Shown here: positions 1,222 through 19,190 of the stretch, piece by piece
How positions within the stretch are numbered: the stretch's first letter is position 1
Layout of the letters: the number at the start of each line of letters is the position of its first letter
Assembly (NCBI GenBank): GCA_937957915.1
Contig: CALGNZ010000047.1
Span: forward strand, 124,001 to 188,000
Reading direction: 5' to 3'
From: an uncultured Granulosicoccaceae bacterium
Lineage (GTDB): Bacteria > Pseudomonadota > Gammaproteobacteria > Granulosicoccales > Granulosicoccaceae
DNA length: 64,000 nucleotides
Position numbers and translations under genes: made by a program
Notes under the pieces: model-generated
What the model was told of the DNA's origin: nothing
What the model saw: only the letters and a program-made list of their open reading frames with translations
Database searches by the model: none

Positions 1222-2088
1222 CTACGACTTCTGTGCTGAACGCAGTTTGCAAAAATGATTGGCAATATTCTCTCTTGTAGTAACCCATACATCGTCATGT
1301 GCATTTACGTATTTTAAAAAAGACTCCAGTGCCCAGATTCTACCCGGCCTGCCGATGATTCTCAGGTGCAGTCCCACCGACAGCATTTTTGGCGCCTTGC
1401 TACCCTCTCTGTATAAGGTATCGAAACTGTGTTTTGCATATTCAAGCCACATGTCCGGTGTATAGGCAGCATTGATCCACATCTTCATATCGTTGGTGTC
1501 AAGTTGATAGGGCACGATAACCATGTCTGGTTCATCGGTGGCAAAGTATGGCGTGTCGCCGGAGTAATCATCCATGTGATAGCTGTAGCCTTCCTCTGAT
1601 AATAGTCGCCGCGTCCGATCAGTATGAAAATATCTGGACAACCACCCTGCTGGTCGTCGGCCACAGGTAGCTTCAATACTATCGGCGGCACCTTTGATAA
1701 AAGCCCTTTCTTCTGCCTCATCCATTTTAAACTGGTGTACCCAGCGCAAGCCATGTGAGCATGGTTCGTGGCCTAGCTGTACAATTGCCTGTGCCAGCTC
1801 GGGTGCGGCTTCCAGTGATCGGGCGGCGACAGTCCATGTTGCATCGACCTCGTATTTGTCGAGTAACTCAATTACTCGTGGTGCGCCCGCCTTGATGCCA
1901 TACAGGTAGTTACTTTCATTACCGTGATTGCGAATCGCTGATTTGATGAACACACCGAGCTCATCGACAGGCTCCATGCCGCGGTCACCGCGTGCAATGC
2001 TCATTTCAGAGCCTTCTTCTACATTCACAACAAGTGACAATGCGAGCCTGGCGTTGCCAGGCCACTGTATGGATTCGACAGGTAACAC
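1222..2088 (-). CDS. Polysaccharide deacetylase-family hydrolase (PuuE-like)
   Basis: A 288-residue NodB-fold protein of the PuuE/allantoinase-like branch, not a typical chitin deacetylase. Visible motifs are LSLVVNVEEGSE near the N-terminus (where this branch has an acidic metal-binding motif), GHEPCSHGLRWVHQ with the metal-binding histidines, RRPAGWLSR, and SVGLHLRIIGRPGR near the C-terminus. Members of this branch hydrolyse small cyclic amides such as allantoin, so a ring-opening or deamidating role on a small molecule is more likely than sugar deacetylation. It is the last gene of the reverse-strand catabolic cluster, 50 bp after the amidase gene. There is no signal peptide, so it should be cytoplasmic. 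The substrate is unknown. Confidence 0.85.
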   Translation of the reverse strand: MLPVESIQWPGNARLALSLVVNVEEGSEMSIARGDRGMEPVDELGVFIKSAIRNHGNESNYLYGIKAGAPRVIELLDKYEVDATWTVAARSLEAAPELAQAIVQLGHEPCSHGLRWVHQFKMDEAEERAFIKGAADSIEATCGRRPAGWLSRYFHTDRTRRLLSEEGYSYHMDDYSGDTPYFATDEPDMVIVPYQLDTNDMKMWINAAYTPDMWLEYAKHSFDTLYREGSKAPKMLSVGLHLRIIGRPGRIWALESFLKYVNAHDDVWVTTRENIANHFCKLRSAQKS

Positions 2089-2138
2089 TACGGTGATTCC
2101 TTATCATTCAGGTGAACAGAATTCATGGTTATATGGCT

Positions 2139-3437
2139 TTATCTGCGCAGCACATCATCTATCAGGCTGGTTTGTGACAGTAACGTCTTGTCACGACCAC
2201 GCTTACCAATTAGTTGTAAGCCAAGTGGTAAGCCATAGCTGCACTGACCCCAGGGTAACGCGGTAGAAGGTGCTCCGATTAAATTAGCTGCTGCCGTGAA
2301 ATCAGCAAGGTCAACTGGCGCGGCTTCGTTGAAGGAATGAGTGCCTCGAGAAGAGGCCGGAGTCATTATCAAATCTACTGCTGACCAATGTTTCAATGCG
2401 TAAGACTGCAAGTGAGCTATTTGTTCTTTAGCAGTGGCTAATTTTGCCGGATCAAGGTTGCGCCCGAAGGTCAGCAGACCGATTAAGTCACTGGAAAAGC
2501 CTTCGGGGTTTTCCTCTAATGCTGCCTTATGTTCGCGATAGGCCTCATCGACACACAATGTTAAGCCCGCACGACGATTCTGTGTTGGATTATCGAACCA
2601 GTTTACTTCCACCGTTGAAATGTCGTATCGGTTTAGCAGGTCAACTGCGTTGTGGTAACACTCAGTGACTTCGCTGCTGCAATCGGATAGCGCATAGTCT
2701 GAAAGCACACCAATTAGTGGATTCGGTGTCGCTGTAGCCGAGTGTGTAGAATCAATATTAACAAGGCTTGAACCGTAGATCTCCAGGTCGGCTGCGGTGG
2801 CGGCTATTAGACCGATAGTATCCAGCAATCGTGACAGGGGTGTTACGCCATTGTCTGATAGAAGTCCGTTAGTGGGCTTGTAGCCGTAGATACCGCAAAT
2901 TGCTGCGGGGATGCGTACCGACCCCATTGTGTCTGTACCCAATGCCAGTGGTACATAGTTAGCGGCAACCGCGACTGCCGAACCACCGGATGACCCACCC
3001 GGTGAAAATCCATGGCGCTGTGGATGGTGGCATTGGCCAAACCATGGGTTATTGGTACTGGTGCCAAGTGCGGCCTCATGCAGGTTGGCCTTGCCAACCA
3101 TGATGGCTCCCTGCTGTTTGAGCCATGTAATCAGGTGCGCGTCGTGCTTAGCGAGGCGTTGCCGATAGGCCTCGATACCTGCAGTCCAGGGCAAATCAGC
3201 CACTGCGATATTATCTTTCGCTACGAATGGCATGCCGTCCCACGGTCCGATTTCAGTGTTTAGTCTATAACGCTCGGCAGACGCCTGTGCGGCACCTGCT
3301 GCTTCCTGGCTAACCGTGATTATGGCGTTGTGTCGGTCTTGTTGACATCTGTCAATACATTGTGCGGTCACCTCGATAACAGAGCGAGACCCGGTGGCAA
3401 ATGCATGTTGCAACGCTACAGCGGTCAGATCAGCCAT
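2139..3437 (-). CDS. Amidase (amidase signature family)
   Basis: About 432 residues, a normal length for the AS family (GatA/AtzF-like fold). The Ser-cisSer-Lys triad is visible: PFVAKDNIAV carries the lysine, and the Gly-Ser-rich stretch GGSSGGSAVAVAA plus the following GTDTMGSVRIPAA carry the two serines. It hydrolyses an amide to acid and ammonia; the substrate is not predictable. The ATG at 3437 is chosen because GGAG sits 8 bp upstream; a TTG at 3455 is the alternative. It overlaps the end of the PaaK-like gene by 8 bp, so translation is probably coupled. With the PuuE-like and HyuAB genes it gives this cluster three different C-N hydrolase types. Confidence 0.9.
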   Translation of the reverse strand: MADLTAVALQHAFATGSRSVIEVTAQCIDRCQQDRHNAIITVSQEAAGAAQASAERYRLNTEIGPWDGMPFVAKDNIAVADLPWTAGIEAYRQRLAKHDAHLITWLKQQGAIMVGKANLHEAALGTSTNNPWFGQCHHPQRHGFSPGGSSGGSAVAVAANYVPLALGTDTMGSVRIPAAICGIYGYKPTNGLLSDNGVTPLSRLLDTIGLIAATAADLEIYGSSLVNIDSTHSATATPNPLIGVLSDYALSDCSSEVTECYHNAVDLLNRYDISTVEVNWFDNPTQNRRAGLTLCVDEAYREHKAALEENPEGFSSDLIGLLTFGRNLDPAKLATAKEQIAHLQSYALKHWSAVDLIMTPASSRGTHSFNEAAPVDLADFTAAANLIGAPSTALPWGQCSYGLPLGLQLIGKRGRDKTLLSQTSLIDDVLRR

Positions 3438-4821
3438 TGGTGTGTCTCCGGTCAATCAAGCGGATTGGTTTTTGCCGCTGATCTATTTCGGTATAACGAG
3501 CGGTTGATCCGTTGCTCACCAGTTGCAGCTTTACCGCAATACCAAACCCCTGTTTGAGCAACGCCGCATATCGCGTATTAAGCTCACGGCTGTCGGGGTT
3601 ATCGCACTCTACAATGACACGCAGGTCGTCGCGCGCTGAAGCATCTCTTTCAGCGATGCAGACAAACTCACCGCTGAACCCGGCTTCGTTTTGCAGAATT
3701 TTCCCCACAGAGTGGGGGAAAATGTTAATTCCGCGTAGCTTGACCATATTATCGGAGCGGCCAAGAAATCCGTCGATGCGTTTGAATACCATGCCAGTGT
3801 CGTTAGCGCCGCTTCGTTCGGTACTCACATCATGTGTGTTGAAACGAATAACGGGGAAAATGTCATCCTTGTACAGACAGGTGCAAACCATATCTCCTTT
3901 GTCACCGGTGGCGACTGCCTGTGCGGAACTGACATCAAGTAGCTCGAGGTAATGGGCGTCTTCCCAGACATAGAGTCCATTGCGTTCAGGCCCTTCACCA
4001 GCGATGCATCCGGTGTCGCCCACGCCGTACCAGTCGTAGGCTTTTGCACCGCCCCAGGCTTGTTCAACAGCGCTGCGATCCTCCATGCCGAGATGACCGG
4101 AAATCATACGTATGCGAATGTCTTCACCTGGCACCAGGCCCTGCTCTCGAGCGGTATCTGCCAGTTTTCGAATGTAATCAACAAAACCCAAAATGACGGT
4201 GGCACCAAAGTCGTTCATCAACTCCACTTGCCGCACCGATGGCGTTTCCACACCGGTACCAGCTGACACAAACAAGCTGCTGGTAAAATGAGAGATTGCC
4301 TCACGGATATAGTGGCCACCATTGATGGTGCCATGACCATATACCGAATGGACGATATCGCTATCCTGCAACCCCTGCCATTGATACATGCGACTGACGA
4401 GCAGGTTGCCAACTTCGCGACCCTTTGCGCCAAACAGTAGAGTCTGTGGCTTTCCGGTGGTACCAGACGTGGTATGAAAAATCACAGGCACCGGGTTTTT
4501 CTGTTGCGGGTTCCAGCCGGAAAAATCGCCAAATGGAGGCGATTGCTCAATAGAGGTCATGATGTCGGACTTGTCGTAGACCGGCAGTTTTACGATATCT
4601 TCAAGGCTGTTGATATCACCCGGTTCAATGCCGGCACTACCCCAGAGTCGCTGGTAGAAGGGAATGTGCCATCCTCGCTGCATGACACTTTTAAATCTGG
4701 TTTCCTGTTGCTGTCGCAGCTGGTCACGGCTAATGCTGGTGTAGCGATCAATGAACTCGGTACCCAGTGGATACTCTGCGAGCAGCTGCCTGATATCCAG
4801 TTGATCGAAATAAGTATTCAT
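3430..4821 (-). CDS. PaaK-like AMP-forming CoA ligase / adenylate-forming enzyme
   Basis: A 463-residue adenylate-forming enzyme of the phenylacetate-CoA ligase type. The P-loop reads FHTTSGTTGKPQ at about residues 115-125. Other visible hallmarks are WYGVGDTG (A5-like), VIRFNTHDVS, and FLGRSDNMVKLRGINIFP near the C-terminus, followed by a small C-terminal domain. Expected reaction: acid + ATP + CoA to acyl-CoA + AMP + PPi. The start ATG overlaps the end of the MmgE/PrpD gene by 4 bp, with GGAAG upstream. It probably activates a carboxylic acid produced by the neighbouring hydrolases. The acid need not be aromatic, because PaaK relatives act on varied substrates. Confidence 0.85.
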   Translation of the reverse strand: MNTYFDQLDIRQLLAEYPLGTEFIDRYTSISRDQLRQQQETRFKSVMQRGWHIPFYQRLWGSAGIEPGDINSLEDIVKLPVYDKSDIMTSIEQSPPFGDFSGWNPQQKNPVPVIFHTTSGTTGKPQTLLFGAKGREVGNLLVSRMYQWQGLQDSDIVHSVYGHGTINGGHYIREAISHFTSSLFVSAGTGVETPSVRQVELMNDFGATVILGFVDYIRKLADTAREQGLVPGEDIRIRMISGHLGMEDRSAVEQAWGGAKAYDWYGVGDTGCIAGEGPERNGLYVWEDAHYLELLDVSSAQAVATGDKGDMVCTCLYKDDIFPVIRFNTHDVSTERSGANDTGMVFKRIDGFLGRSDNMVKLRGINIFPHSVGKILQNEAGFSGEFVCIAERDASARDDLRVIVECDNPDSRELNTRYAALLKQGFGIAVKLQLVSNGSTARYTEIDQRQKPIRLIDRRHTNG

Positions 4822-6176
4822 GGTGCCGCTTCCAGCAGTTTGGAGACCTTTATGTTTTCGGGGGCATTCAGTACCGCTTCGCCCAAATCAGTTGTCTGTG
4901 TACAGTCACCGATGCCCCAATTGCACAGCATGGCGTATTTTTTTCTGATTTGATCCGCACTTAATGGCCACTCCGGATCTCCCATTGCATCAATAATTTC
5001 CTGTTTGATTGTTGCGCCGTTTTTTAGCTCAATCGAAACAGTGCTGCCAAAGTGCGCCGGGTAGTTTGCGGTGAGCTGCGGACAACTATTGACCGTTGTC
5101 AATTGACGCAGATGTGCAATGTTTGCCTGCGGGAGCGCTTCAGCTTCAAAATCGCGCGGCAACACAGTACCGTTGCAAAGCGCTACAGCTATGCTGTGAT
5201 GTAGTGAAAACCGTGCTTCAGCAGCTGTAGTCGGACTGATCCGATCGCAAAATACTTTTGCATCGTGGTAAGTGTCCACTGTAATAGCTGCGATATCCGC
5301 AACTGCAATGGACTCAGCCTCTGCCTGTCTATTTGGTTCCAGTGTCTCGCGTAGCATAAGCGCAGCGTCAATAGCCGGATGGCAATGACGACACGCGGGC
5401 CAGGGTTTGAAACTCGTTTTCAGTATCGCCCAGTCTGCATCGACAGTAATTTCATCTGCTGAGGGTTGGGCTGCTAATACGCGGTGCCAGCCTTGCTCGC
5501 CTTCAATAATATGCTCGGCTGCGCTGAAGCCATAGCGAGCAGCTTGTGCGGCAGCCATGCCGGTACGGACTGTGTGTACGCTATGCCACTGCTTCGTCAT
5601 GCTATTGCCGTGGCGGGTATGCCACAGTCCGCCTGAGACAGACAGGGCATTGCACAGGGCTGATAGTTGTTGTGTGTTATCGAGGGCGCAGATGGCAGCA
5701 CTGGCAATTGCGGATCCGCCCACGCCTGCCGTACTGGTTGGATGCCAGCGCTGGTAGTGAAATGCATCAAGCGAGTTGCCCAGGCGAATCGCTGCTTCGT
5801 AACCCCGCACTAGTGCCTCCAGCAATGTTCCATAATCGCTATCGTTTTGTAGTGCTGTATACAGTGCTGCAGGTACAACGACCGGGCCCGGGTGCACGAT
5901 TGCAGTACGTGCAAGATCGTCCATTTCAAGCACATTGCCCAATGCCGTGCTGTAAGTGAAAGCAGCGTCATAATCCAGCCTGCCCAGGCCAAAACTTGGT
6001 GTACTGCCAGTGCGCAGACGGAGTTCATGAAGCGACAGTGCCGGTGTTTCGCGCGCCGCACCATAAACGCAGCCTATCCAGTCAAGCACATGCAGCCGTG
6101 CACGTTGCCGGAGTGATGCGTCAATTGGCTGATTGCACCGATCAATCAGTTGGCAAGCCAGAGATTCTGCGGTCAC
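4818..6176 (-). CDS. MmgE/PrpD family protein
   Basis: A 452-residue member of the MmgE/PrpD family, which includes 2-methylcitrate dehydratase, cis-aconitate decarboxylase and iminodisuccinate epimerase. Family-like segments are HVLDWIGCVYGA at the N-terminus, ALGNVLEMDDLARTAIVHPGPVV, VVRGYEAAIR-like text (LVRGYEAAIRLG), WHPTSTAGVGGSAIASAA and KPWPACRHCHPAIDA. The start is GTG, overlapping the CoA-transferase stop codon as GTGA, so translation is likely coupled. In this context it may dehydrate, decarboxylate or isomerise a branched di- or tricarboxylic acid. There is no citrate-synthase-like partner nearby, so the methylcitrate cycle itself is unlikely. Confidence 0.85.
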   Translation of the reverse strand: MTAESLACQLIDRCNQPIDASLRQRARLHVLDWIGCVYGAARETPALSLHELRLRTGSTPSFGLGRLDYDAAFTYSTALGNVLEMDDLARTAIVHPGPVVVPAALYTALQNDSDYGTLLEALVRGYEAAIRLGNSLDAFHYQRWHPTSTAGVGGSAIASAAICALDNTQQLSALCNALSVSGGLWHTRHGNSMTKQWHSVHTVRTGMAAAQAARYGFSAAEHIIEGEQGWHRVLAAQPSADEITVDADWAILKTSFKPWPACRHCHPAIDAALMLRETLEPNRQAEAESIAVADIAAITVDTYHDAKVFCDRISPTTAAEARFSLHHSIAVALCNGTVLPRDFEAEALPQANIAHLRQLTTVNSCPQLTANYPAHFGSTVSIELKNGATIKQEIIDAMGDPEWPLSADQIRKKYAMLCNWGIGDCTQTTDLGEAVLNAPENIKVSKLLEAAP

Positions 6177-7285
6177 GACAGCGTGGTGTTGTTTGTAATA
6201 GCGTGCTCATTCAGCGCAGGTGCTACTGTGCTGACAGATGCGGGTTCCCTGCGAAACTTGATTGCCGATCCGATGACATGTTCGCCGTTGTCACCGGTGA
6301 TTAGCATTGAACGCGCTGTACATTGTTCGCTGCCAAATGCTTCGACGAAATCGAGTACCGGAGCAAAGCAAACGTCTTTATCAGCAAACCACTCAATCCA
6401 GTGATCCAGTGGTTGCTGTAAAAATGTGCTGGTCAGAAAATCGATAGCCGGTTTTTGTGTATCGCCCGCCTCACCAATGCAAATTTCGATGAGGTCGGGT
6501 CTGTCTAATGCGCTGAGTAGATTTCGCACAAACTTCTCCTCGCGGCCACCGATTACCAGATGCCGTCCGTCAGCAGTCGGGTATACCTGATAAAAGGCTG
6601 CACCGCCCAACGAGCGTTGCTGTTGTGACCTGACCGGCACACCGTCAACGATTGACGGGCCGGCGGTGTGCGCACACCAGGGCACCAGACTGTCGTACAT
6701 GGCAATATCAAGGTAGTCGCCAACACCGGATTTTTCGCGCCCGATTATCGCCATAAGTACGCCAGACAATGCGGTCAGAGACGCTGCCATATCGGAGGCA
6801 GCCACACCTGGCACCACCGGCGTTCCGTGTTGATCGTCGTTGACGCTCATGTAGCCAGCATAGGCTTGCACGGCCATATCGTGGGCGGGGTGATTCTGCA
6901 ATGGTCCTTGTTGGCCAAATGCAGAAATAGAACAGTAAATTAATCGAGGATTAATCGAGGACAGTGTTTCGTAATCCACTTTCAGCCGTTTGGCGACCCC
7001 CGGGCGAAACGCTTCGACAAACACATCAGCCTGCTCGATGAGTTGATAGAGTTGCTGTAGTTCGCTGTCACTTTTAAGGTTTAGCGCAATTGATGACTTG
7101 CCCCGGTTCAGGGTACGAAACCAGATCGACTGGCCTGCTTCAAATGGACCCATTTCTCTCGACGGATCGCCGGCCAATGGCTCAACCTTTATTACCGTGG
7201 CACCGTGATCTGCCATCATGGCAGTCATTTGTGGCCCTGGTAAGAACAGTGACAGGTCGACTACTTTGATGCCATCCAGTTTCAT
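6173..7285 (-). CDS. CaiB/BaiF family (class III) CoA-transferase
   Basis: A 370-residue family III CoA-transferase. The N-terminus shows the typical GIKVVDLSLFLPGPQ and ADHGATVIKVEP; NRGKSSIALNL and VFVEAFRPGVAKRL follow, then IYCSISAFGQQGP. The catalytic aspartate should lie in AHDMAVQAYAG, where the family has D-x-x-x-Q. It moves CoA between two carboxylates in the cytoplasm. It is one of two CoA-transferases in the cluster (the other at 15066-16274), which suggests two activation steps or two acids. Translation is probably coupled to the MmgE/PrpD gene behind it, and it follows the acyl-CoA dehydrogenase gene by 2 bp. Confidence 0.88.
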   Translation of the reverse strand: MKLDGIKVVDLSLFLPGPQMTAMMADHGATVIKVEPLAGDPSREMGPFEAGQSIWFRTLNRGKSSIALNLKSDSELQQLYQLIEQADVFVEAFRPGVAKRLKVDYETLSSINPRLIYCSISAFGQQGPLQNHPAHDMAVQAYAGYMSVNDDQHGTPVVPGVAASDMAASLTALSGVLMAIIGREKSGVGDYLDIAMYDSLVPWCAHTAGPSIVDGVPVRSQQQRSLGGAAFYQVYPTADGRHLVIGGREEKFVRNLLSALDRPDLIEICIGEAGDTQKPAIDFLTSTFLQQPLDHWIEWFADKDVCFAPVLDFVEAFGSEQCTARSMLITGDNGEHVIGSAIKFRREPASVSTVAPALNEHAITNNTTLS

Positions 7286-7287
7286 GC

Positions 7288-8511
7288 TTATATCCGGTTT
7301 CGATCGATGTATTGTTTGGCTATGATTATGCGCTGCATTTCATTGGTGCCTTCACCAATGCACATCAGCATGGCGTCTCGATAGAAGCGCTCAATCTCGT
7401 ATTCGGTGGAGTAGCTGTAGCCACCGAAAATTCGCATTGCCTCCTGAGCACAGTAGACACCGGTTTCAGTGGCAAAATATTTTGCCATACCTGCTTCCAT
7501 ATCACAGCGCTCGCCCTGATCAAAACGGTTCGCTGCGTCTTTAATAAGCAGCTTGGATGCTTCCACTTTGGCGGCCATTTCACCCAGCTTCAGCTGAATA
7601 GCCTGGTGTTGGGCAATGGCTTTGCCAAAAGTTGAGCGTTGTTGTGCGTACCGTGTGGCCATCTTCAGTGCACCTTCCGCTATACCGGCGCCGCGCGCTG
7701 CAACATTGATACGACCGAGTTCCAGTCCGCCAAGTACCTGCTGTAAACCGTTGCCTTCGACACCTCCAAGTAATGCAGTTTCGGAGATTTGCCTGTTGTC
7801 CAAAACCAGCTCGCATGAGTCGATCGAACGGTAGCCGAGTTTGGTCAGTTTTTTTGATACTTCATAACCTTCATCTTTTTTACAGATAAAAGCACTCATG
7901 CCTTTGTGTCTTGGTTGTGCATTCACATCTGTCTTGGCCAGCACCATCAGGCAGTTGCCATACAGTGAATTAGTAATCCAGGTTTTTGTGCCATTGAGTA
8001 AATAGCCGTCTGGATTCTTGTCAGCACGAGTCTTAATCGCCTGAAGATCTGTACCTGCATCGGGTTCGGTGAGTGCGATGCCACCGCGTAGCTCCCCGCT
8101 GGCCATGGCTGGAAGCCACTCGGATTTTTGTTCATCCGTACCACATCGTTCTATGGCTGAAGCCATAATCAGATGGGAATTAAAAATGCCCGATGGTGCC
8201 ATCCACGCTGCTGACACTCTGGTTACTATCTTCGCATAGGTGGCTGCCGGTAATCCCAGTCCGCCATAGTCGGGTGAAATGGTGGCTCCAAACAATCCCA
8301 GCTCTTTCATTTGCTCGACCAGTTGGTGCGGGTATTTATCCTCCTGGTCGTATTCGCGTGCAATTGGGGCGACATCATTCCCAACCCATTTGTCGATGGT
8401 ATCGAGAATGGCGTTCTCGTCTTCAGTGGTCCATATTGGCTCGTCTTTCGCCTGCTCTTTTGCGGAAGGCTCTTGATTCGAAAACTCTTGCCTCGAACGT
8501 TCTGTACCCAT
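7288..8511 (-). CDS. Acyl-CoA dehydrogenase
   Basis: A 407-residue FAD-dependent acyl-CoA dehydrogenase of normal length. Visible hallmarks are GIALTEPDAGTDLQAIKTRA (FAD/substrate binding), WITNSLYGNCLMVLAKT, GRINVAARGAGIAEGAL, QRSTFGKAIAQHQAIQ, and a C-terminal RIFGGYSYSTEYEIERFYRD ending in GEGTNEMQRIIIAKQ. The catalytic base is probably the glutamate in the EGTNE-type motif, but this was not aligned. It introduces a trans-2 double bond and passes electrons to ETF. The start ATG shares one base with the stop of the MaoC gene (TGATG). It probably works with the MaoC and enoyl-CoA hydratases of this cluster. Confidence 0.9.
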   Translation of the reverse strand: MGTERSRQEFSNQEPSAKEQAKDEPIWTTEDENAILDTIDKWVGNDVAPIAREYDQEDKYPHQLVEQMKELGLFGATISPDYGGLGLPAATYAKIVTRVSAAWMAPSGIFNSHLIMASAIERCGTDEQKSEWLPAMASGELRGGIALTEPDAGTDLQAIKTRADKNPDGYLLNGTKTWITNSLYGNCLMVLAKTDVNAQPRHKGMSAFICKKDEGYEVSKKLTKLGYRSIDSCELVLDNRQISETALLGGVEGNGLQQVLGGLELGRINVAARGAGIAEGALKMATRYAQQRSTFGKAIAQHQAIQLKLGEMAAKVEASKLLIKDAANRFDQGERCDMEAGMAKYFATETGVYCAQEAMRIFGGYSYSTEYEIERFYRDAMLMCIGEGTNEMQRIIIAKQYIDRNRI

Positions 8512-9026
8512 CAGTAGTTCACCTTGTCTTCGACGCTGTGTCCCTGTTTAGCAATCAGGATTGTTCGTTCAAACGTACAAACAACTTTCTTATGTTGATT
8601 AAAACCGGTGGTAAAGACTTTCACAATGCCTGCGCCCGGACGTGATTTTGATTCACGTTTGTCCAGAACCCTTGTCTCGCTGGTTAATGTGTCTCCGGCG
8701 AATAACGGGTGTGTTAGCTTTATGTCAGTCCAGCCGAGATTGGCAATCGCTTTTTGACTGACATCTGACACGCTCATCCCGACCATGATTGATACCGTTA
8801 GCGGTGATGAAATAACGGTTCGGCCAAATTCTGTTGCCTTGGCGTATTCTTCGTCGAAATGTAGCGGGTGAGTGTTCATTGTTAGCAGAGTAAACCAGGT
8901 GTTATCGGTTTCGGTCACTGTGCGCCCTGGTCGATGCTCATAGATATCGCCAACAGTGAAATCTTCATAATAACGACCAAAGCTCTCTCGATACCGATTT
9001 TCGCCGACCTGCTTTGATGATTGCAT
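8511..9026 (-). CDS. MaoC-like (hotdog) hydratase
   Basis: About 171 residues with a single hotdog-fold MaoC domain. Features include FGRYYEDFTVGDIYEHRPGR, the T-x-x-D-N segment TVTETDNTWFTLLTMNTHPLHFDEEYA, which holds the catalytic Asp/His pair expected for (R)-specific enoyl-CoA or mesaconyl-CoA-type hydratases, and FAGDTLTSETRVLDKRESKS. The ATG at 9026 (MQSSKQVGENRYRES) is preferred; an in-frame TTG at 9125 would overlap hyuA and add an unusual N-terminus. It most likely hydrates a branched unsaturated acyl-CoA. Single-domain members resemble the mesaconyl-CoA hydratase group more than beta-oxidation enzymes, but the substrate is inference. Confidence 0.85.
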   Translation of the reverse strand: MQSSKQVGENRYRESFGRYYEDFTVGDIYEHRPGRTVTETDNTWFTLLTMNTHPLHFDEEYAKATEFGRTVISSPLTVSIMVGMSVSDVSQKAIANLGWTDIKLTHPLFAGDTLTSETRVLDKRESKSRPGAGIVKVFTTGFNQHKKVVCTFERTILIAKQGHSVEDKVNY

Positions 9027-9105
9027 TGACCCGTTCTCTTGTTGAGCGTCAATGACATTATGCCGTTTTGTGGAGGGTAATCCCGGGTAATTTAACGATG
9101 CCGGG

Positions 9106-12937: not shown

Positions 12938-13617
12938 GATTGAGACTCCTGACATGTGGGGTGGTGCAGTTTTGTTGTCGGGTTGTTTGAGTTGGCAGCG
13001 GACAGGTCGTATACCCACGGACGAGCAGTTTTGTCATGGACTAAAAACTGATCAATTGCCTGCTTGTGTTTAAGAGTTAGATCTATGGCATTGCTGCCTT
13101 CCAGCAGCATCTGACGTTTGTCTTCATTTAGATTGAATTTGATTTTCAGGTGTTCTGCAGAAAGGTGACAGTGTTGCAGATCAACAACTAACTCGGTGTC
13201 AGCATTAACGGCATCAGTCAGTCGAGCTATCGTGCCCTGGTCAAGCACAATGGGGAGGATCCCGTTGTTAATACAGTTATCAAAGAAAATTGATCCATAG
13301 CTTGTTGCAATTATTATCCTGAAGCCGTATTCGTGCAATGCCCATACGGCATGCTCCCTGGATGATCCACAGCCGAAGTTACTTTTTGCAATCAGTATAC
13401 TTGCACCTTTTGCAGTAGGCTTGTTCAGGACAAATTGCGGATCAGGTGTTCGACCTCCGGTTGACGCATCCAGATAACGCAGGTTTGCAAACAACCCATC
13501 AGCAAGCCCGACTTTTGAGACACTTTTCATCTCACGTGAGGGAATAATCTGATCTGTGTTGATATTGTCAGTCAGCATTAGCACTGCTTTGCCGCTGTGT
13601 CGGGTGATACCTTTCAA
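12934..13617 (-). CDS. LeuD-type isomerase small subunit (3-isopropylmalate dehydratase family)
   Basis: A 227-residue aconitase-superfamily swivelling subunit. Motifs include TDNINTDQIIP, NFGCGSSREHAVWALHEYGF and an extended C-terminus (the usual LeuD is about 200 residues). With the LeuC-type subunit it would isomerise a malate-type substrate by dehydration and rehydration through a [4Fe-4S] centre. The start is unusual: a TTG with a weak GAGAAAAG-like upstream sequence, in the same frame as the LeuC-type gene, whose stop is 39 bp before it. No leuA or leuB lies nearby, so I expect a catabolic isopropylmalate-, citraconate- or dimethylmalate-like substrate rather than leucine synthesis. Confidence 0.85.
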   Translation of the reverse strand: MKGITRHSGKAVLMLTDNINTDQIIPSREMKSVSKVGLADGLFANLRYLDASTGGRTPDPQFVLNKPTAKGASILIAKSNFGCGSSREHAVWALHEYGFRIIIATSYGSIFFDNCINNGILPIVLDQGTIARLTDAVNADTELVVDLQHCHLSAEHLKIKFNLNEDKRQMLLEGSNAIDLTLKHKQAIDQFLVHDKTARPWVYDLSAANSNNPTTKLHHPTCQESQS

Positions 13618-13656
13618 AGGCTTTTCTCGCCGCTCTTGTTGTGCTGGATTAAACAG

Positions 13657-15069
13657 TTAGCCGACATTTGAAAAGTGCAGCCGCAGATCGGAGATTGTCC
13701 CGTTGATTGCTGACAGTGCTACTGTTTCGGGGCTTGCCAGATGCGTTTTGCTGCCCGGGCCCTGGCGTCCTTCGAAATTTCTATTGGTCGATGATATAAC
13801 CCGTTCTTGATCGCCAAAACTGTCGCCACCGGCATAGAAGCACATGGCGCATCCGGATTCATTCCATTCAAATCCGGCTTCCATAAATACCTGGTCGAGC
13901 CCTTCTGCTTCAGCCTGGGTTTTAACCTGAGTCGAGCCGGGAACGCAGATAGCTTTGACACCACTCGCTACCTTGTTATTTTTGAGTATCAGTGCTGCTC
14001 TGCGAAGATCACTCAGACGAGCATTGGTGCATGAGCCGATGTAGGCCGTATCAATGGCTAAATCGGTTAATTTTTGTCCGGCTGCAACATCCATATAGGC
14101 AAGTGCCGCCAGTCGGGTTGGGTCACTATCGCCATTGGCCTTGATCGGTGCAGGTATTGCCTCGTCGATACCAACAGCGTGTTCCGGGCTGGTTCCCCAG
14201 GTGACAGCAGGTGCCAGTGCGCTTACGTCCATATCAATTTCACTGTCGAATTTAGCACCGTCATCGGTGGCAAGGCCTAGCCAGTGTTGCGTTGCTTCGT
14301 TGGTATTGTTGGCGGGTGCATAAGGTCGGCCTAGAACATAATCTACAGTTTTTTGATCCGGTGCAATCAGAGCGGTAAACGCACCCATCTCAACACCCAT
14401 GTTGCAAAGCGTCAATCGTTGTTCTATTTCCATTGACTCAATCACAGGGCCACAGAACTCGATGACATGACCCACTGCGCGTGAAGCGGAGTGTGTAGCA
14501 ATGAGATGCAGAATAATATCTTTAGCCGTCAACCAGGGTGGCTGGGTACCGCTCAGATTGATTCTCAATTGCTTCAGTGCTTTGACACGCAGAGTTTTGG
14601 TTGCCAGGGCATGTTCGCAATCGGTGGATCCGATTCCCCAGGCAAGAGCCCCGAGTCCTCCGAGTGTGCAAGTGTGGCTATCGGGGCAAACAAGAGTAAT
14701 ACCGGGTTGAGCTATACCGAGCTCAGGGGCAATGACGTGCACGATACCCTGGCGGGGGTCGTCAATATCAAACAGGGTTAATCCAAGATCTGTCGTTTGT
14801 TTTCGCATTGCCTCGATGAATACTTCACCACCTGGCATACGCGTTTGCATGGGCCGACCAGGGCTGGTATCAGCGATATGGTCAATCGTGCAAAATACCG
14901 CTGCGGGTTCGACGATAGAGCGCTTATCGGCAACCAGATTGGCGAGTGCAAGAGCCCCGGTGCGCTCATGCAACATGACCCGATCGATCAATACCAGCGA
15001 TGACCCGTCGTCAAACTGCTTTATTTGATGTGATTGCAGGAGCTTGTCGAACAGGGTTGTAGCTGTCAT
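13657..15069 (-). CDS. LeuC-type isomerase large subunit (3-isopropylmalate dehydratase family)
   Basis: A 470-residue aconitase-type large subunit of the expected length. It starts MTATTLFDKLLQSHQIKQF, with TCTLGGLGALAWGIGSTDCEH, MGVEMGAFTALIAPD and YIGSCTNARLSDLRRAA. The [4Fe-4S] ligands are visible as a cysteine in GSCTNARL and a pair in NESGCAMCFYAGGD. It pairs with the small subunit encoded downstream. It lies within the catabolic cluster between the CoA-transferase and HyuB genes and overlaps the CoA-transferase stop by 4 bp. It is best read as a paralog recruited for a branched dicarboxylate, and the exact substrate is not deducible. Confidence 0.87.
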   Translation of the reverse strand: MTATTLFDKLLQSHQIKQFDDGSSLVLIDRVMLHERTGALALANLVADKRSIVEPAAVFCTIDHIADTSPGRPMQTRMPGGEVFIEAMRKQTTDLGLTLFDIDDPRQGIVHVIAPELGIAQPGITLVCPDSHTCTLGGLGALAWGIGSTDCEHALATKTLRVKALKQLRINLSGTQPPWLTAKDIILHLIATHSASRAVGHVIEFCGPVIESMEIEQRLTLCNMGVEMGAFTALIAPDQKTVDYVLGRPYAPANNTNEATQHWLGLATDDGAKFDSEIDMDVSALAPAVTWGTSPEHAVGIDEAIPAPIKANGDSDPTRLAALAYMDVAAGQKLTDLAIDTAYIGSCTNARLSDLRRAALILKNNKVASGVKAICVPGSTQVKTQAEAEGLDQVFMEAGFEWNESGCAMCFYAGGDSFGDQERVISSTNRNFEGRQGPGSKTHLASPETVALSAINGTISDLRLHFSNVG

Positions 15070-16274
15070 GCAACGACGCCGTCGTCGATGAGTTGTTGTA
15101 CATCTTTTTTACTGTAACCGATGGAATCAAGGATAGATCGGGTGTCCTGACCTGCAGACGGAGGATCGTATTGCTTCTCTGCGCGCTGACCGTTGAATTC
15201 CACTGGCAGTTTGGGCAACGCGACGATTTTATCCTGACCAGGCAAGGCAATGTCGTACAGTCCGTTGTGTTTCAGCTGCGGATCATCGTGTAGATGCTCT
15301 GGCTGATTTATCGGTGCAAATGGCAGGCCGGCTTCTATCAACAACGCTGACAGTGCCTCTGAATCCAATGTTGCAAACAAGGCACGTAGCTTTGGAATAA
15401 TGGTGTCGCGGTGTTTCACTCTATCGGCATTGGCGCGATAGTCATCGTTGTTGTGCCACTCGCTCAGTTCAAACACTTCACAGAACCGTTGCCACTGACC
15501 GTCGCTGACGACGCCAACAAACATCTGTCTGTCGGCAGTTTCAAATACATCGTATACGGCCCACGCTGACGTACGTGCCGGCATTGGTGGAGCGGGTGTG
15601 TCGGTCACCGCATATTGAGCCATATGCTGCCCTACCAGAAAAACCGTGGTTTCAAAGAGAGCAGAGGTGATGTGTGCACCCGATTCTTCTGGCGCGCTGC
15701 TGTTTGTTACAGTGCCCGGATGCGAAGCGCGTTGGTCTCGCTCGAGCAGTGCCGCCAGTATGCCGATCACACCGAACATACCACCTGCTATATCAATAAC
15801 GGATGATCCTGCCCGCAGTGGCCTGCCGGGTGGGCCTGTCATATAGGCCAGACCGCCCATCATTTGTGCGACCTCATCCAGTGCCGTTCGCTGTTCATAC
15901 GGGCCGCTTAAAAAACCCTTCGATGACTGGTAGACAATGTCACTGTTGATTGCCTTTACTGACTCGTAGCCAAAGCCCAGTTTGTCCAGTGCACCTGGCC
16001 TGAAGTTTTCAATCATCACATCGGTGTCGGCCAGCAACTTGCGCACAATCTGCTGCCCCTGCTCGCTTTTTATATCAAGGCAAAGGCTCTTCTTGTTGCG
16101 ATTGAACATGGCAAAGTAGCCTGCCCCACTGCCGGGCAGCGAACGTGTTTTATCACCGCCGAGTGGTTCTATCTTGATGACCTCGGCGCCAAGGTCACCC
16201 AGGATCATGCCAACAGACGGGCCCATGACCATGTGCGAGAACTCGATAACTCTGATGTTTTTAAGAAAATTCAT
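15066..16274 (-). CDS. CaiB/BaiF family (class III) CoA-transferase
   Basis: A 402-residue class III CoA-transferase. The N-terminus reads FLKNIRVIEFSHMVMGP and GDLGAEVIKIEPLGGDKTR; then MFNRNKKSLCLDIKSEQG, MIENFRPGALDKLGFGY and IVYQSSKGFLSGPYEQRTALD, where the final acidic residue is a likely catalytic aspartate. It is the first gene of the reverse-strand operon and diverges from the HMG-CoA-lyase-like gene, so its promoter lies in the palindrome-containing intergenic region. It probably generates the CoA thioester that enters the pathway. It is not a close duplicate of the 6173-7285 protein, so the two may use different acids. Confidence 0.88.
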   Translation of the reverse strand: MNFLKNIRVIEFSHMVMGPSVGMILGDLGAEVIKIEPLGGDKTRSLPGSGAGYFAMFNRNKKSLCLDIKSEQGQQIVRKLLADTDVMIENFRPGALDKLGFGYESVKAINSDIVYQSSKGFLSGPYEQRTALDEVAQMMGGLAYMTGPPGRPLRAGSSVIDIAGGMFGVIGILAALLERDQRASHPGTVTNSSAPEESGAHITSALFETTVFLVGQHMAQYAVTDTPAPPMPARTSAWAVYDVFETADRQMFVGVVSDGQWQRFCEVFELSEWHNNDDYRANADRVKHRDTIIPKLRALFATLDSEALSALLIEAGLPFAPINQPEHLHDDPQLKHNGLYDIALPGQDKIVALPKLPVEFNGQRAEKQYDPPSAGQDTRSILDSIGYSKKDVQQLIDDGVVA

Positions 16275-16330
16275 AGGTCCGCTGGTGTTCCGGGGCCGTG
16301 AGCTTGTGTGGGTAGTTGTTGCATACGCCC

Positions 16331-16348: not shown

Positions 16349-16355
16349 ACACAAA

Positions 16356-16373
16356 TGGTATATAGATATACCA
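16356..16373. promoter_or_regulatory. Perfect palindrome, candidate GntR/HutC operator
   Basis: TGGTATATAGATATACCA consists of two exact 8-bp inverted arms (TGGTATAT / ATATACCA) with a 2-bp centre. It lies in the divergent promoter between the CoA-transferase operon and the HMG-CoA-lyase-like operon. GntR-family operators commonly have the form GT-n-AC with A/T-rich centres, and HutC-type sites such as TGGTCTAGACCA are similar. The cluster encodes its own HutC-subfamily regulator at 18324. Binding is inference but the match of site, context and regulator is good. Confidence 0.6.
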
Positions 16374-16414
16374 ATAAAGGTTTAGTCTAAATATGTCAGC
16401 TATCAAAGTGCTCA

Positions 16415-16522
16415 GGTTATCCGGAACGATTAAGTTATCCAGAGCACTTAATTTATCCAGAGCAACCGGGCTATCGAGAGCAACTGGGTTATCCAGAGCA
16501 CCCGGGTTATCCAGAGCAAATA
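16415..16522. repeat. Six tandem 18-bp repeats in the divergent promoter
   Basis: Six units in exact 18-bp register, with core TTATCCAGAGCA (ggTTATCCagagca-type), starting near 16415, 16433, 16451, 16469, 16487 and 16505. The unit starting 16469 has CTATCG, and the first has TTATCCGGAACG. The array ends about 30 bp before the ATG at 16553. Regular spacing at 18 bp is not a whole helical turn, so simple same-face binding is not obvious. Read on the reverse strand it would encode an ALDNPV-type hexapeptide repeat, which I do not treat as a gene. Confidence 0.85.
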
Positions 16523-16552
16523 TGCAAATCACACTGTGCCGGAGCCAATAAC

Positions 16553-17503
16553 ATGGCTGTTGATGTCATTGTTAGCGAGGTCGGTCCGAGAGACGGGTTG
16601 CAGAGCATTGATCAGTTACTCGATCTGGAAACCAAGAAGCGTTGGATTACAGCCGAAGCTGCCGCAGGCGTCACCGAGATAGAGGTCGGGTCGTTTGTTA
16701 ATTACCGTTTGTTGCCGCAGATGAGCGACACCGCAGCGTTAGTTGAGCATGCCAGGCAGATAGAAGGGCTGGCAGTAGCGGTACTTGTGCCTAATCTGCG
16801 AGGGGCGAGTGCGGCGATAGAGGCCGGGGCCAGTAAAATTTCAATACCGGTATCAGCCAGTGAAACGCACTCGCTAAACAATGTGCGGCGTACACATGCA
16901 CAAATGATAGATGAAGTAAGGAATATTCGGGCTGCAATAAACCAGTTACCAGCAGCTGAGCAACCCTATTTCGAGGCGGGGATTGCAACCGCATTTGGTT
17001 GTACTTTGGAAGGCCACGTATCTTTGAGTACGGTGCAGAGGCTTGCAGAGCAGTTACTCGAGGCGGGTGCTGAAGAAGTGGGGTTATCAGATACAACCGG
17101 TTTTGCCAATCCCGCTATGATTAAAAACAGGATTCGTGCTGTGCACAACACGGTTGGGCGCGACAAACTCACCGGTGTTCACTTGCACAACACTCGTGGG
17201 CTGGGTTTGACCAATGCCTTTGCTGCTCTCGATGAGGGAATTACCACGCTTGATTCATCTTTGGCCGGTCTCGGCGGGTGTCCGTTTGCACCGGGGGCCA
17301 GCGGCAATATAGTGACCGAGGATCTTGTATTTATGCTCGAATCAATGGGGTTAAACACAGGCATCGACATTGACGCACTGGTTGCTGTCAGGTCAATTCT
17401 TGAAAGTGCCTTGCCCGCTGAACCCTTGTACGGGTTCATTCCCGATGCGAGCGTGCCATTAGGCTGGTCTGATATTCGCGCGGAGCATGCTGTTGCAAAC
17501 TAG
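16553..17503 (+). CDS. HMG-CoA lyase-like protein
   Basis: A 316-residue TIM-barrel member of the HMGL family. It begins with SEVGPRDGLQSIDQ (metal and substrate contacts) and has EIEVGSFVNYRLLPQMSD, GVHLHNTRGLGLTNAFAA (metal-binding His pair), and a C-terminal GLGGCPFAPGASGNIVTED with the catalytic cysteine. The likely reaction is cleavage of a 3-hydroxy-3-methylglutaryl-CoA-type substrate to acetyl-CoA plus a 3-oxoacid, which suggests a branched C6 acyl-CoA late in the pathway. Start ATG has GGAG 8 bp upstream. It is the first gene of a forward operon with the enoyl-CoA hydratase and regulator. Confidence 0.87.
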   Translation: MAVDVIVSEVGPRDGLQSIDQLLDLETKKRWITAEAAAGVTEIEVGSFVNYRLLPQMSDTAALVEHARQIEGLAVAVLVPNLRGASAAIEAGASKISIPVSASETHSLNNVRRTHAQMIDEVRNIRAAINQLPAAEQPYFEAGIATAFGCTLEGHVSLSTVQRLAEQLLEAGAEEVGLSDTTGFANPAMIKNRIRAVHNTVGRDKLTGVHLHNTRGLGLTNAFAALDEGITTLDSSLAGLGGCPFAPGASGNIVTEDLVFMLESMGLNTGIDIDALVAVRSILESALPAEPLYGFIPDASVPLGWSDIRAEHAVAN

Positions 17504-18299
17504 CGGTCTGAGTAGCAGCAGCGAGTACCTTCGGGTTGAGGTAACCGATACTGTTGCCTCGATTGTGATGGACAGGCCTGAGCGGCTGAATGCCTTTAAC
17601 CGGGCTATGTGGGATGCGTTGACAGAGGTCTGCAATCGTCTCTCGAGTGATGTCTCGGTTAAAGCGGTTGTACTGCGTTCCAGCAGCAATACGGCATTTT
17701 GCGCTGGTGCTGATATATCCGAATTTTCAGAACTGATGGGTGATGCCGGCAAGGTTGAAGCTAACGCCCAATCGATACGCGCCGCATCACATGCATTGCA
17801 AACGCTGTCTCGCCCGACTATTGCCCGAATACAAGGCAGTTGCTTTGGTGGTGGAGCGCTGTTGGCACTGGCATGTGATTTCCGAATAGTGGATAGCAGT
17901 GCGCGATTTGCCATTACACCGGCGAAGCTTGGATTGTGTTACTCGATCAGTGATACCAGTAATTTAGTGAGTACCGTTGGCTTGCCAATGGCGCGTCGAA
18001 TATTATTACTGGCAGAGGTTCTGGATGCGGAGTCAGCGTTGCAGTGTGGCCTCGTCGATCGGATTGCCAGAGATGAATCCATCGATGCTGAAGTGCAGGC
18101 TATGTTGTCGACATTGCAGCAGCACTCGCAATATTCGTTGCGCAATCTTAAAGTCGGTCTGTATCAGGTGAGTCAGGGTCAGACAGAAGATGATACTGAC
18201 TCAATAGCGCGCTTTATTGAGGCGTTTAACGGAGAGGATCTGGCAGAGGGAATGGATGCTTTTCTTTCACGTCGTAAGCCGCAGTTTCCGTTTAGTTAG
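17487..18299 (+). CDS. Enoyl-CoA hydratase/isomerase family protein
   Basis: A 270-residue crotonase-fold protein. Visible motifs are VTDTVASIVMDRPERLNAFNRAM, SSNTAFCAGADISEFSEL (CoA-binding AGAD), IARIQGSCFGGGALLALACDF (oxyanion-hole region), and RFAITPAKLGLCYSIS. It overlaps the lyase gene by 17 bp. A glutamate appears at VDRIARDESIDAE, but the catalytic acids were not aligned, so hydratase versus isomerase is open. Next to an HMGL-like lyase it could be a 3-methylglutaconyl-CoA-type hydratase giving HMG-CoA. Cytoplasmic; no signal sequence. Confidence 0.85.
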   Translation: MLLQTSGLSSSSEYLRVEVTDTVASIVMDRPERLNAFNRAMWDALTEVCNRLSSDVSVKAVVLRSSSNTAFCAGADISEFSELMGDAGKVEANAQSIRAASHALQTLSRPTIARIQGSCFGGGALLALACDFRIVDSSARFAITPAKLGLCYSISDTSNLVSTVGLPMARRILLLAEVLDAESALQCGLVDRIARDESIDAEVQAMLSTLQQHSQYSLRNLKVGLYQVSQGQTEDDTDSIARFIEAFNGEDLAEGMDAFLSRRKPQFPFS

Positions 18300-18323
18300 C
18301 CGGCCATTCCTGAATATCTTTTG

Positions 18324-19190
18324 ATGAAAGCAAACAGTCAGTCTTCAAAGTCTGCGCTACAGGCCATCCCGGAACCTGCGGTAGAGACTCTGTTGCCGTG
18401 GTCGAAGCCTGACAACAATAATCCCACACCACTCTACTACCAGATTTATCAGTTGTACAAACAGCGTATTCTTTCCGGGAGCCTGAAACGAGGTGACAAA
18501 CTCCCCAGTGAGAGCGCGCAGGAAGCGGCCTACAGTGTGTCGCGCATAACGGCGAGGCGTGCTATGGATGAACTGGCAAGGGATGGCCTGGTCACACGTG
18601 AGCGTGGTCGTGGCACTATTGTCAGCTACGCAATGCCACCGTCGACGGTGGCGGCAGATTTTTCCGGCCTTATGGAAAGCCTGATTGCCATAGGCGCCGC
18701 AACTGATGTTGAAGTGCTGTCGTTTGATTACTGTATCGCACCTGCTCATGTGGCAGACGCACTGGAAATTAAGGCGGGGGCATTGGTACAAAATGCCGAG
18801 CGCAAGCGTTCAAAAAATGGCAAGCCACTGTCCTATATTGTGACTTTTTTACCTGAGCGAATCGGTCGGTCATTTGCACGAGCTGATCTGACCGATCAGC
18901 CTATTTTGTCGTTGATTGAGCGATCAGGCCATACCATTGCTGAAGCAGAGCAGTCAGTAACGGCTTTAATAGCTGATAGCCTGTCTGCCAGGGTGCTGGA
19001 GGTAGAGGCCGGCGCGGCGCTGTTAAAAGTCACACGAATTGTCAGAGATCACAACAGAGTGCCGGTGCAATACATCGAGGTGTTCTATCGACCCGATGCC
19101 TACCAGCTGAATATGCGGCTGGGTCGCGTTAACATTGACAATGAGACGCGGCTTTGGGCAGCACAAAGTGCCGGCCCGATTGACCATTAA
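18324..19190 (+). CDS. GntR-family transcriptional regulator, HutC/UTRA subfamily
   Basis: About 288 residues. The N-terminal winged helix is seen in PLYYQIYQLYKQRILSGSLKRGDKLPSE, SRITARRAMDELARDGLV and RERGRGTIV; the C-terminal half (from about residue 110) has a UTRA-type effector domain with VTALIADSLSARVLEVEAGAALLKVTRIV and PVQYIEVFYRPDAYQLNM. HutC relatives usually repress catabolic genes until a pathway metabolite binds. It is the last gene of the forward operon, and the palindrome in the 16.3-kb divergent promoter is its probable target. ATG at 18324; a TTG immediately before would add one residue. Confidence 0.9.
   Translation: MKANSQSSKSALQAIPEPAVETLLPWSKPDNNNPTPLYYQIYQLYKQRILSGSLKRGDKLPSESAQEAAYSVSRITARRAMDELARDGLVTRERGRGTIVSYAMPPSTVAADFSGLMESLIAIGAATDVEVLSFDYCIAPAHVADALEIKAGALVQNAERKRSKNGKPLSYIVTFLPERIGRSFARADLTDQPILSLIERSGHTIAEAEQSVTALIADSLSARVLEVEAGAALLKVTRIVRDHNRVPVQYIEVFYRPDAYQLNMRLGRVNIDNETRLWAAQSAGPIDH

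Follow-up and report, generated by a model that had tools for sequence, protein, structure and literature searches.

A composite gene cluster in a Granulosicoccaceae bacterium that may degrade cyclic imides or lactams of branched C4-dicarboxylates

Genes and features of the locus

The stretch of DNA analysed here (the window, 64,000 nucleotides) is taken from contig CALGNZ010000047.1 of an uncultured Granulosicoccaceae bacterium, whose assembly comprises 5.38 Mb in 201 contigs and is 89% complete. Its positions 1222-19190 hold the catabolic gene cluster that is our subject. Open reading frame (ORF) calling and translation give fifteen uninterrupted genes in this interval, and Pfam and NCBIfam profile matches bear out, for every one, the family named in an earlier reading by a model that saw only the sequence (the original prediction). 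Because all fifteen are strong family matches, chance matches are no concern: the weakest best Pfam match (6.6e-10, the PaaK-like ligase) belongs to a protein that reaches 3.0e-49 in NCBIfam. The locus is a real, intact composite catabolic cluster, as tightly packed as first described.

Twelve genes lie on the minus strand, and as listed their ORFs overlap or leave at most 50 bases between neighbours. From CaiB1 down to the PuuE-like gene they encode the following: CaiB1, a family III CoA-transferase (15066-16274; PF02515, 4e-101) and proposed (R)-alkylmalate CoA-transferase; a LeuC-type aconitase large subunit (13657-15069; PF00330, 1.3e-143), proposed to be an alkylmaleate hydratase, and the LeuD-type small subunit (12934-13617; PF00694, 2.4e-29); the HyuB (11150-13018; PF02538, 3.3e-161) and HyuA (9106-11205; PF01968, 1.2e-93) subunits of an enzyme of the ATP-dependent hydantoinase/lactamase family; a MaoC-type hydratase of the RipB/Ich kind (8511-9125; NF038241 RipB_Ich, 5.2e-69), a proposed alkylfumaryl-CoA hydratase; an acyl-CoA dehydrogenase, ACAD (7288-8511; PF00441, 3.3e-46), proposed to act on alkylsuccinyl-CoA; CaiB2, a second family III CoA-transferase (6173-7285; PF02515, 2.6e-98), proposed for alkylsuccinate; an MmgE/PrpD family protein (4818-6176; PF03972, 1.8e-38, and PF19305, 1.3e-31), a proposed epimerase or isomerase of a branched C4-dicarboxylate; a PaaK-like adenylate-forming CoA ligase (3430-4821; PF14535); an amidase-signature hydrolase (2139-3455; PF01425, 5.2e-81), the proposed half-amidase; and a PuuE-like hydrolase of polysaccharide-deacetylase fold (1222-2088; PF01522, 2.6e-12), the proposed cyclic imidase. 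Judged by where the family match begins, three listed starts are probably too far upstream; the likely start codons are ATG 12937 for HyuB, 11157 for HyuA and 9026 for MaoC, and these revised starts put the HyuA-MaoC gap at 79 bases.

Three genes run divergently on the plus strand (16553-19190): an HMG-CoA-lyase-like gene, HMGL (16553-17503; PF00682, 9.1e-46), whose product is a proposed (R)-citramalyl-CoA-type lyase; an enoyl-CoA hydratase/isomerase family gene, ECH (17487-18299; PF00378, 2.9e-47), whose ORF overlaps that of HMGL by 17 bases; and the only GntR/UTRA (HutC-type) regulator gene of the cluster (18321-19190; PF00392, 2.3e-18, and PF07702, 4.9e-28), which closes the group. The divergent promoter region contains a near-perfect palindrome, AATGGTATATAGATATACCAAT (16354-16375), as a candidate operator. 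Sequence motifs that we take to be the expected catalytic residues of their families are present in LeuC (SCTN at 346 and GCAMC at 406), LeuD (GCGSSREHA), MmgE (HPTST and MTKQWH) and HMGL (GPRDGLQ, HLHNTRG and GGCPFAPGA).

A HyuAB-LeuCD-CaiB1-HMGL module

The clearest unit within the cluster, module 1, is laid out as HyuAB-LeuDC-CaiB1 divergent from HMGL. The HMGL gene has matches at E 1e-90 or better in 2 of the 47 other genomes of the order (78-80% identity), and both of these congeners keep the module in the same gene order, with HyuA at 74-77%, HyuB at 77%, LeuD at 58-59% and LeuC and CaiB1 at 72-73% each. The fetched stretches extend some 8 kb past HyuA, and one of them stops at a contig end 1 kb past ECH; within them neither congener has a match to PuuE, the amidase, PaaK, MmgE, the window-type CaiB2, ACAD or MaoC. 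The congener whose stretch stops at the contig end also carries another type of CaiB next to HyuA. Across the whole of either congener genome, no MmgE match reaches E 1e-40; as a marker within the order MmgE was set aside, having only 36-38% homologues, in 7 other genomes of 48. Because the two congeners hold the HyuAB-LeuCD-CaiB1-HMGL part only, the cluster is best described as a composite of modules that recur separately, and the co-conservation of the full set that the original prediction looked for does not hold. Of the co-occurrence it had proposed to examine by comparative genomics, LeuCD with HyuAB and HMGL is found in the congeners and in a Rhizobiaceae genome, and MmgE/PrpD is without a match in the congeners at the threshold just given.

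In that Rhizobiaceae genome (locus L020) the order is isochorismatase-HyuA-HyuB-LeuD-LeuC-CaiB1, divergent from HMGL-GntR, and a Polaromonas locus (L086) has HyuB-HyuA-isochorismatase, GntR and HMGL-CaiB1-LeuC-LeuD. An ECH homologue (52%) adjoins HMGL in L019/L175 as well. More broadly, we collected the best 80 loci of a longer list of HMGL matches, all at 60% identity or more to a query alignment of three HMGL proteins, and scored gene presence by tblastn at 40% identity or more; these loci were selected for HMGL, and some end at contig ends. CaiB1 is present in 73 of them, LeuC and LeuD in 61 each, GntR in 10, HyuB in 3 and ECH in 1. In Proteobacteria, then, LeuCD, CaiB1 and HMGL form a recurring unit that in most cases lacks the ring openers of the window. 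PuuE homologues adjoin the LeuCD-HMGL core in two loci (L054 and L068), and in sphingomonads and others the core occurs with tandem distant PuuE relatives and an isochorismatase (pJE1, pTomTYG65b and Acidiphilium JZ-6). Acidiphilium JZ-6 has a second set of HyuAB, CaiB, HMGL and isochorismatase genes about 6 kb away, and pTomTYG65b and pJE1 also have a second LeuCD with an ICL/PEP-mutase-type lyase.

Several side observations concern this core. Tandem pairs of distant PuuE relatives lie immediately next to an isochorismatase-family gene at 5185-7681 of L013, at 36422-38965 of L018 and at about 4400-6930 of L163, and these sets adjoin LeuCD/HMGL or an ICL/PEPM lyase; such pairs may be a second recurrent imide-type module, possibly encoding a two-subunit hydrolase. 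In seven other loci (L024, L033, L045, L079, L085, L095 and L097) the core is accompanied by one shared protein group, of which the L024 member is DUF1838 (PF08894), and several have a second protein group without a Pfam match, so that a different feeder pathway is possible there. In Allorhizobium, LeuC lies beside a peptide synthetase gene.

LeuCD might instead be the isopropylmalate isomerase of the leucine pathway, with the remaining genes serving ordinary leucine/HMG-CoA or fatty-acid degradation. LeuD does pass the leucine-pathway cut-off (TIGR00171, 187.5 bits against 116.25), HMGL passes that of the HMG-CoA-lyase subfamily (PRK05692, 264 bits against 246), and the HMGL gene is the sole match of its kind found in the 89% complete assembly. 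LeuC, however, misses the leucine-pathway equivalog cut-off (TIGR00170, 490.5 bits against 560.25), and a second LeuC, 42% identical to that of the cluster, is encoded elsewhere in the genome; for these two reasons we disfavour a leucine-pathway assignment of LeuCD. The set also has no carboxylase among its fifteen proteins, its ACAD scores 69.5 bits against the isovaleryl-CoA dehydrogenase cut-off of 545, and the ring openers and the amidase would be left without a role, all of which makes this explanation very improbable. The closest solved structure to CaiB1 is succinate-hydroxymethylglutarate CoA-transferase (9br6, 7.2e-53). The description of LeuCD as an aconitase-type isomerase is right about the family; as to its role, a hydratase is at least as likely.

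The HyuAB type and its usual neighbours

Neither HyuA nor HyuB reaches the cut-offs for the caprolactamase subunits (NF050156/NF050157): HyuA scores 552.2 bits against 1000 for alpha and HyuB 313.6 against 1000 for beta. In a sample of 398 genomes evenly drawn from the phylum, own genome included and no more than two candidates per genome scored, HyuA at 56-59% identity is present in seven others. In the stretches fetched around these genes (14.6 to 20 kb), isochorismatase, an ICL/PEPM lyase and an FAD oxidoreductase of the Sulfitobacter type are present at all seven loci and LeuCD at six, the LeuC proteins of these six being 36-72% identical to the Sulfitobacter LeuC. There are eighteen further HyuA matches at 40-44%, of which we fetched seven (41-44%; two of the stretches are short, at 9.3 and 12.9 kb), and isochorismatase and LeuC are found at none of these seven. 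Comparing the close HyuA loci with the paralogues gives Fisher probabilities of 0.0006 for isochorismatase and 0.005 for LeuC, kinship among genomes being ignored.

Annotated plasmids of Sulfitobacter, Azospirillum, Roseomonas and Paraburkholderia have similar clusters together with TRAP or branched-chain ABC transporters and GntR; the Roseomonas cluster also includes MmgE/PrpD, and the Paraburkholderia one is without the FAD oxidoreductase. Two plasmid records without annotation hold the HyuAB-LeuCD-isochorismatase-lyase set by tblastn (L107 and L109). These recurrent neighbours suggest that the HyuAB type of the window takes part in a pathway that includes amide hydrolysis and a C-C lyase, in most cases with LeuCD as well. 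CaiB1 and HMGL occupy, in the window, the place that the ICL/PEPM lyase has in the other HyuAB clusters. A literature search that did not cover most subscription journals found no paper that joins HyuAB, LeuCD and isochorismatase genes. In Tistrella plasmid pTM2 (L011), an unannotated HyuA homologue at 3159-5275 matches in two pieces in different frames, which suggests a frameshift in the deposited sequence or in the gene.

The PuuE-ACAD-MaoC and MmgE-PaaK-amidase modules

Module 2 consists of PuuE, CaiB2, ACAD and MaoC. Four other genomes of the sample have PuuE homologues with E values of 1e-75 or better, and in three of them (L163, L164 and L165) MaoC (71-75%), ACAD (58-70%), CitE and CaiB genes lie within 20 kb; the fourth (L166) has none of these. 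Locus L163, from the same class as the window, has the order PuuE-CitE-MaoC-ACAD-CaiB-CaiB, with an ICL/PEPM gene, an ETF-ubiquinone oxidoreductase, two PuuE relatives and an isochorismatase nearby. MaoC and ACAD homologues also lie with CaiB and CitE on plasmids of Azospirillum, Pseudosulfitobacter, Variovorax and Aminobacter MSH1, in two cases with MmgE, and the Azospirillum plasmid has amidase and TRAP genes as well. The window ACAD is 56-70% identical to putative ACADs encoded near CaiB and at least one of MaoC, MmgE and CitE; CaiB2 is 45-55% identical to CaiB proteins near an ACAD homologue in Variovorax, Aminobacter MSH1, Tistrella, L163 and L164, and its best mesaconate transferase model gives 189.6 bits against a cut-off of 700. 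The closest solved structure to MaoC is beta-methylmalyl-CoA dehydratase (8hgn, 1.5e-31).

In module 3, the order MmgE-PaaK-amidase is found in Tistrella (43, 53 and 34% identity) and in L165 (41, 55 and 37%), where it lies within 10 kb of ECH, ACAD, MaoC and PuuE; the genome with L165 (G386) has a HyuAB-LeuCD-isochorismatase-lyase cluster on another contig (L139). Apart from the Tistrella copy, MmgE is 35-36% identical to homologues in Aminobacter SR38 and Chelatococcus, and its nearest solved structure is IDS epimerase (2hp3, 2.6e-22). The PaaK-like ligase falls short of phenylacetate-CoA ligase (TIGR02155, 165.2 bits against 646.3).

The ring openers could point to a different kind of ring. 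If the substrate were a substituted hydantoin or ureide, HyuAB would yield an N-carbamoyl amino acid, the amidase would remove the carbamoyl group, and the amino acid would enter the dicarboxylate steps. In favour of this, hydantoinase and allantoinase are members of the HyuAB and PuuE families, HyuAB at other loci has isochorismatase-type amidases and FAD oxidoreductases as neighbours, and the breakdown of N-methylhydantoin uses similar kinds of enzyme. No ammonia-lyase, transaminase or amino-acid oxidase is found among the fifteen proteins, however, the two FAD oxidoreductases scored from other loci match flavocytochrome c best and L-aspartate oxidase much more weakly, and the PuuE-like protein falls below the allantoinase cut-off (TIGR03212, 248.5 bits against 424.6). 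We therefore hold a hydantoin or ureide substrate to be quite unlikely.

Alternatively, the locus may be a chance juxtaposition of three unrelated catabolic modules that serve different substrates: an alkylmaleate or lactam for the first, a methylsuccinate-type compound for the second, and others for the ligase and amidase. The congeners with module 1 only, the scattering of the Tistrella homologues over plasmid pTM2 and the many cores without ring openers would all follow from such an arrangement. Against it, the homologues of PuuE, MaoC and ACAD recur jointly, in one case beside another imide-type module (L163), PuuE homologues adjoin the LeuCD-HMGL core in the two loci named above, and in the window the modules form one run of overlapping or nearly touching genes. 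We consider this explanation unlikely overall, although it deserves to be taken seriously.

A possible pathway for rings on a branched C4 skeleton

From the gene families, their packing, their catalytic motifs and the recurrent co-localisation of parts, all of which are observed, we infer the reactions and their directions, the substrate, the shared lyase and the regulation. On balance we favour the view that the locus is a catabolic operon pair for amide, imide or lactam rings on a branched C4-dicarboxylate skeleton. HyuAB, which uses ATP, and the PuuE-like hydrolase would open a lactam or imide ring, and the amidase would release ammonia from the resulting half-amide. An unsaturated product, of the alkylmaleate or citraconate type, would be hydrated by LeuCD to an (R)-alkylmalate, just as LeuCD-type hydration of citraconate gives (R)-citramalate; CaiB1 would turn this into its CoA ester, and the HMGL-like lyase would split the ester into an acyl-CoA (acetyl-CoA if the substituent is methyl) and a 2-oxoacid (pyruvate). 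A saturated product, an alkylsuccinate, would be epimerised by MmgE/PrpD and esterified by CaiB2, after which dehydrogenation by ACAD and hydration by MaoC would give a citramalyl-CoA-type ester that joins the first branch. The branches would converge on a 3-hydroxyacyl-CoA carrying a tertiary alcohol, whose bond is of the type cleaved by HMG-CoA lyase; one lyase would serve both.

What the evidence points to is a type of bond and a type of skeleton; it does not single out one compound. Methylsuccinimide or citraconimide would be the simplest fit, and alkylmaleimides and alkylsuccinimides, including tetrapyrrole fragments, are candidates. Tetrapyrrole-derived maleimides would be an attractive natural source, to which the sequence holds no specific pointer; mono- and dipyrrolic chlorophyll products occur in plants, according to the available text of PMC7318184. 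The original suggestion of a cyclic, branched nitrogen compound is partly supported, in that it fits the recurrent neighbourhoods of the parts.

Several points weigh against this pathway. The whole fifteen-gene set is found in no other locus examined, and modules 2 and 3, absent from the two congeners, may serve different substrates. Of the best 80 HMGL loci, 19 are without LeuC, only 2 have a close PuuE and 4 have HyuA; HMGL-CaiB pairs (50-58% identity) without LeuCD in Burkholderia stagnalis and Roseomonas mucosa show that the pair is not bound to LeuCD everywhere; and the LeuC proteins at three of the close HyuA loci, only 36-38% identical to the Sulfitobacter LeuC, need not share its substrate. 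An activated imide would not need the ATP used by HyuAB, and the PuuE-like protein matches allantoinase (PuuE structure 3cl6, 2.6e-64) better than 3qbu (1.5e-19), which is the structure cited as a relative of a fungal cyclic imidase (PMC9304392, in part). In the second branch, ACAD and CaiB2 pass no equivalog cut-off, and MaoC falls below the Ich model (NF038241 RipB_Ich, 231.7 bits against 340), which Paraburkholderia RipB alone passes (356.1) of four MaoC proteins scored; MaoC thus belongs to a sister group that may or may not act on methylsuccinate. No CitE-type lyase is found among the fifteen proteins or in the window, the best CitE-type (S)-citramalyl-CoA lyase of the genome scoring 137.8 bits against a cut-off of 375 on another contig, so that HMGL would have to take the product of the second branch, whose stereochemistry may differ. 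MmgE is only 26-28% identical to the MmgE proteins of the Azospirillum and Pseudosulfitobacter clusters that resemble the five-gene set (below). The PaaK-like ligase and ECH fit no clear step of the route, and the next plasmid homologue of the ligase (37%, Variovorax SRS16) has unrelated neighbours. Lastly, no transporter gene lies inside the cluster.

What would be new is that the opening of imides or lactams is combined with two CoA routes by which branched dicarboxylates are used, as well as the recurrent association of HyuAB, LeuCD and a lyase, of which the same limited literature search found no description. A broader and improbable extension is that HyuAB, LeuCD and an alkylmalate lyase (CaiB with HMGL, or ICL/PEPM) form a widespread, undescribed pathway for alkylmaleimides and lactams, chiefly fragments of chlorophyll, haem and bilins, and so perform the last steps of tetrapyrrole breakdown, the window joining to it a methylsuccinate-type route by which saturated and unsaturated rings would be used together. 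The favoured pathway would tie the ring openers, HyuAB and the PuuE relatives, to a defined chemical end point. As these modules are found in many Proteobacteria, assigning a single substrate would carry annotation to many genomes and might reveal recyclers of cyclic imides, perhaps of pigment fragments or imide-type pollutants.

The divergent promoter region and flanking genes

The palindrome at 16354-16375 is a single site in the window (18-base core with at most 3 mismatches; 0.02 matches expected by chance). It is not kept in the two congeners, and among 166 loci its pattern is confined to copies of the window sequence itself; the corresponding region of L020 and of L173 contains palindromes unlike it. 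A site restricted in this way is of little help in judging coregulation, and the original description of the genes as standing under one GntR/HutC regulator goes further than one regulator gene and one operator-like site allow. The stretch from the palindrome to the HMGL start contains, at 16416-16519, a tandem array of 18-base units (about TTATCCAGAGCAACCGGG); five of the six window matches to a 14-base repeat core (at most 2 mismatches) fall in this interval, with 0.37 expected in the whole window.

Adjoining the cluster, 19200-20498 encodes a response regulator with receiver domains and a GGDEF domain. GGEEF is the signature motif of such domains, and by eye the signature here seems degenerate (AGTF instead of GGEEF), so the domain may be catalytically inactive. 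An Opp-type peptide ABC transporter is encoded at 37460-43521 (a binding protein, two permeases and one ORF with two ATPase domains); at 18 kb distance, we did not adopt it as the transporter of the cluster. Two dynamin-like/MMR_HSR1 GTPase genes adjoin each other at 47337-50906. Searched against reference proteins, the 20 kb upstream of the window gave no match at 1e-8.

Comparison with known systems

The closest relative is the itaconate/methylsuccinate cluster (Ict, Ich, Ccl, Mcd and Msi; PA0878-PA0883 and Cupriavidus necator), a route solved in Cupriavidus and Pseudomonas with CaiB, MaoC, CitE, ACAD and MmgE/PrpD, according to the text available of PMC12290011 and PMC9875883; the former reports that MmgE/PrpD was shown to be a methylsuccinate isomerase and ACAD a methylsuccinyl-C4-CoA dehydrogenase. 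Module 2 appears to resemble this make-up, and the window shares with it, in one putative operon, members of the CaiB, ACAD and MmgE/PrpD families and an Ich-like MaoC. The original statement that no standard pathway has the full set is right for the full set and does not extend to this four-gene combination. The window lacks a CitE-type Ccl, its MaoC is below the cut-off and its MmgE is apparently of another subfamily; we rejected a plain itaconate cluster with full membership on the first two counts. It adds ring openers, the amidase, LeuCD, a second CaiB and HMGL. According to the available text of PMC9875883, wild-type Pseudomonas putida KT2440 used none of the branched dicarboxylates tested, and PA0878-PA0883 did not enable P. 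putida to grow on (R)-citramalate or citraconate; module 1 would supply this missing branch; the proposed pathway thus predicts a route for both compounds, which P. putida does not use via the solved Pseudomonas cluster.

The HyuAB-isochorismatase-LeuCD-ICL/PEPM clusters of Sulfitobacter, Azospirillum, Roseomonas and Paraburkholderia have HyuAB (55-60%), LeuCD and GntR in common with the window. They differ in using an ICL/PEPM lyase, not CaiB1 and HMGL, and an isochorismatase, not an amidase-signature enzyme, and in having their own transporters and mostly an FAD oxidoreductase.

Chloroflexus has a family III succinyl-CoA:(R)-citramalate CoA-transferase with an HMGL-like (R)-citramalyl-CoA lyase, a pair of transferase and lyase as in the window; the metabolic context is another one, and the likeness is by description, not by sequence. 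The end steps of nicotinate fermentation, a LeuCD-family dimethylmaleate hydratase followed by a dimethylmalate lyase, are alike in that an alkylmaleate is hydrated and then cleaved, whereas in the window cleavage would go through CoA activation and HMGL; the fifteen genes include none for nicotinate. The available part of PMC8307300 lists (R)-citramalate CoA-transferase and (R)-citramalyl-CoA lyase by EC number only. For the ring-opening steps, the nearest parallel is Aspergillus HxnM/HxnN: there a cyclic imide is opened by an imidase with a distant relationship to PuuE, and an amidase-type hydrolase then yields the dicarboxylate (PMC9304392, as far as its available text goes). The window has the same pairing of an enzyme of the wider PuuE/deacetylase fold with an amidase-type hydrolase, while the Hxn system is fungal, acts on a six-membered hydroxyglutarimide and has no CoA branch, and the PuuE-like protein of the window is nearer to allantoinase.

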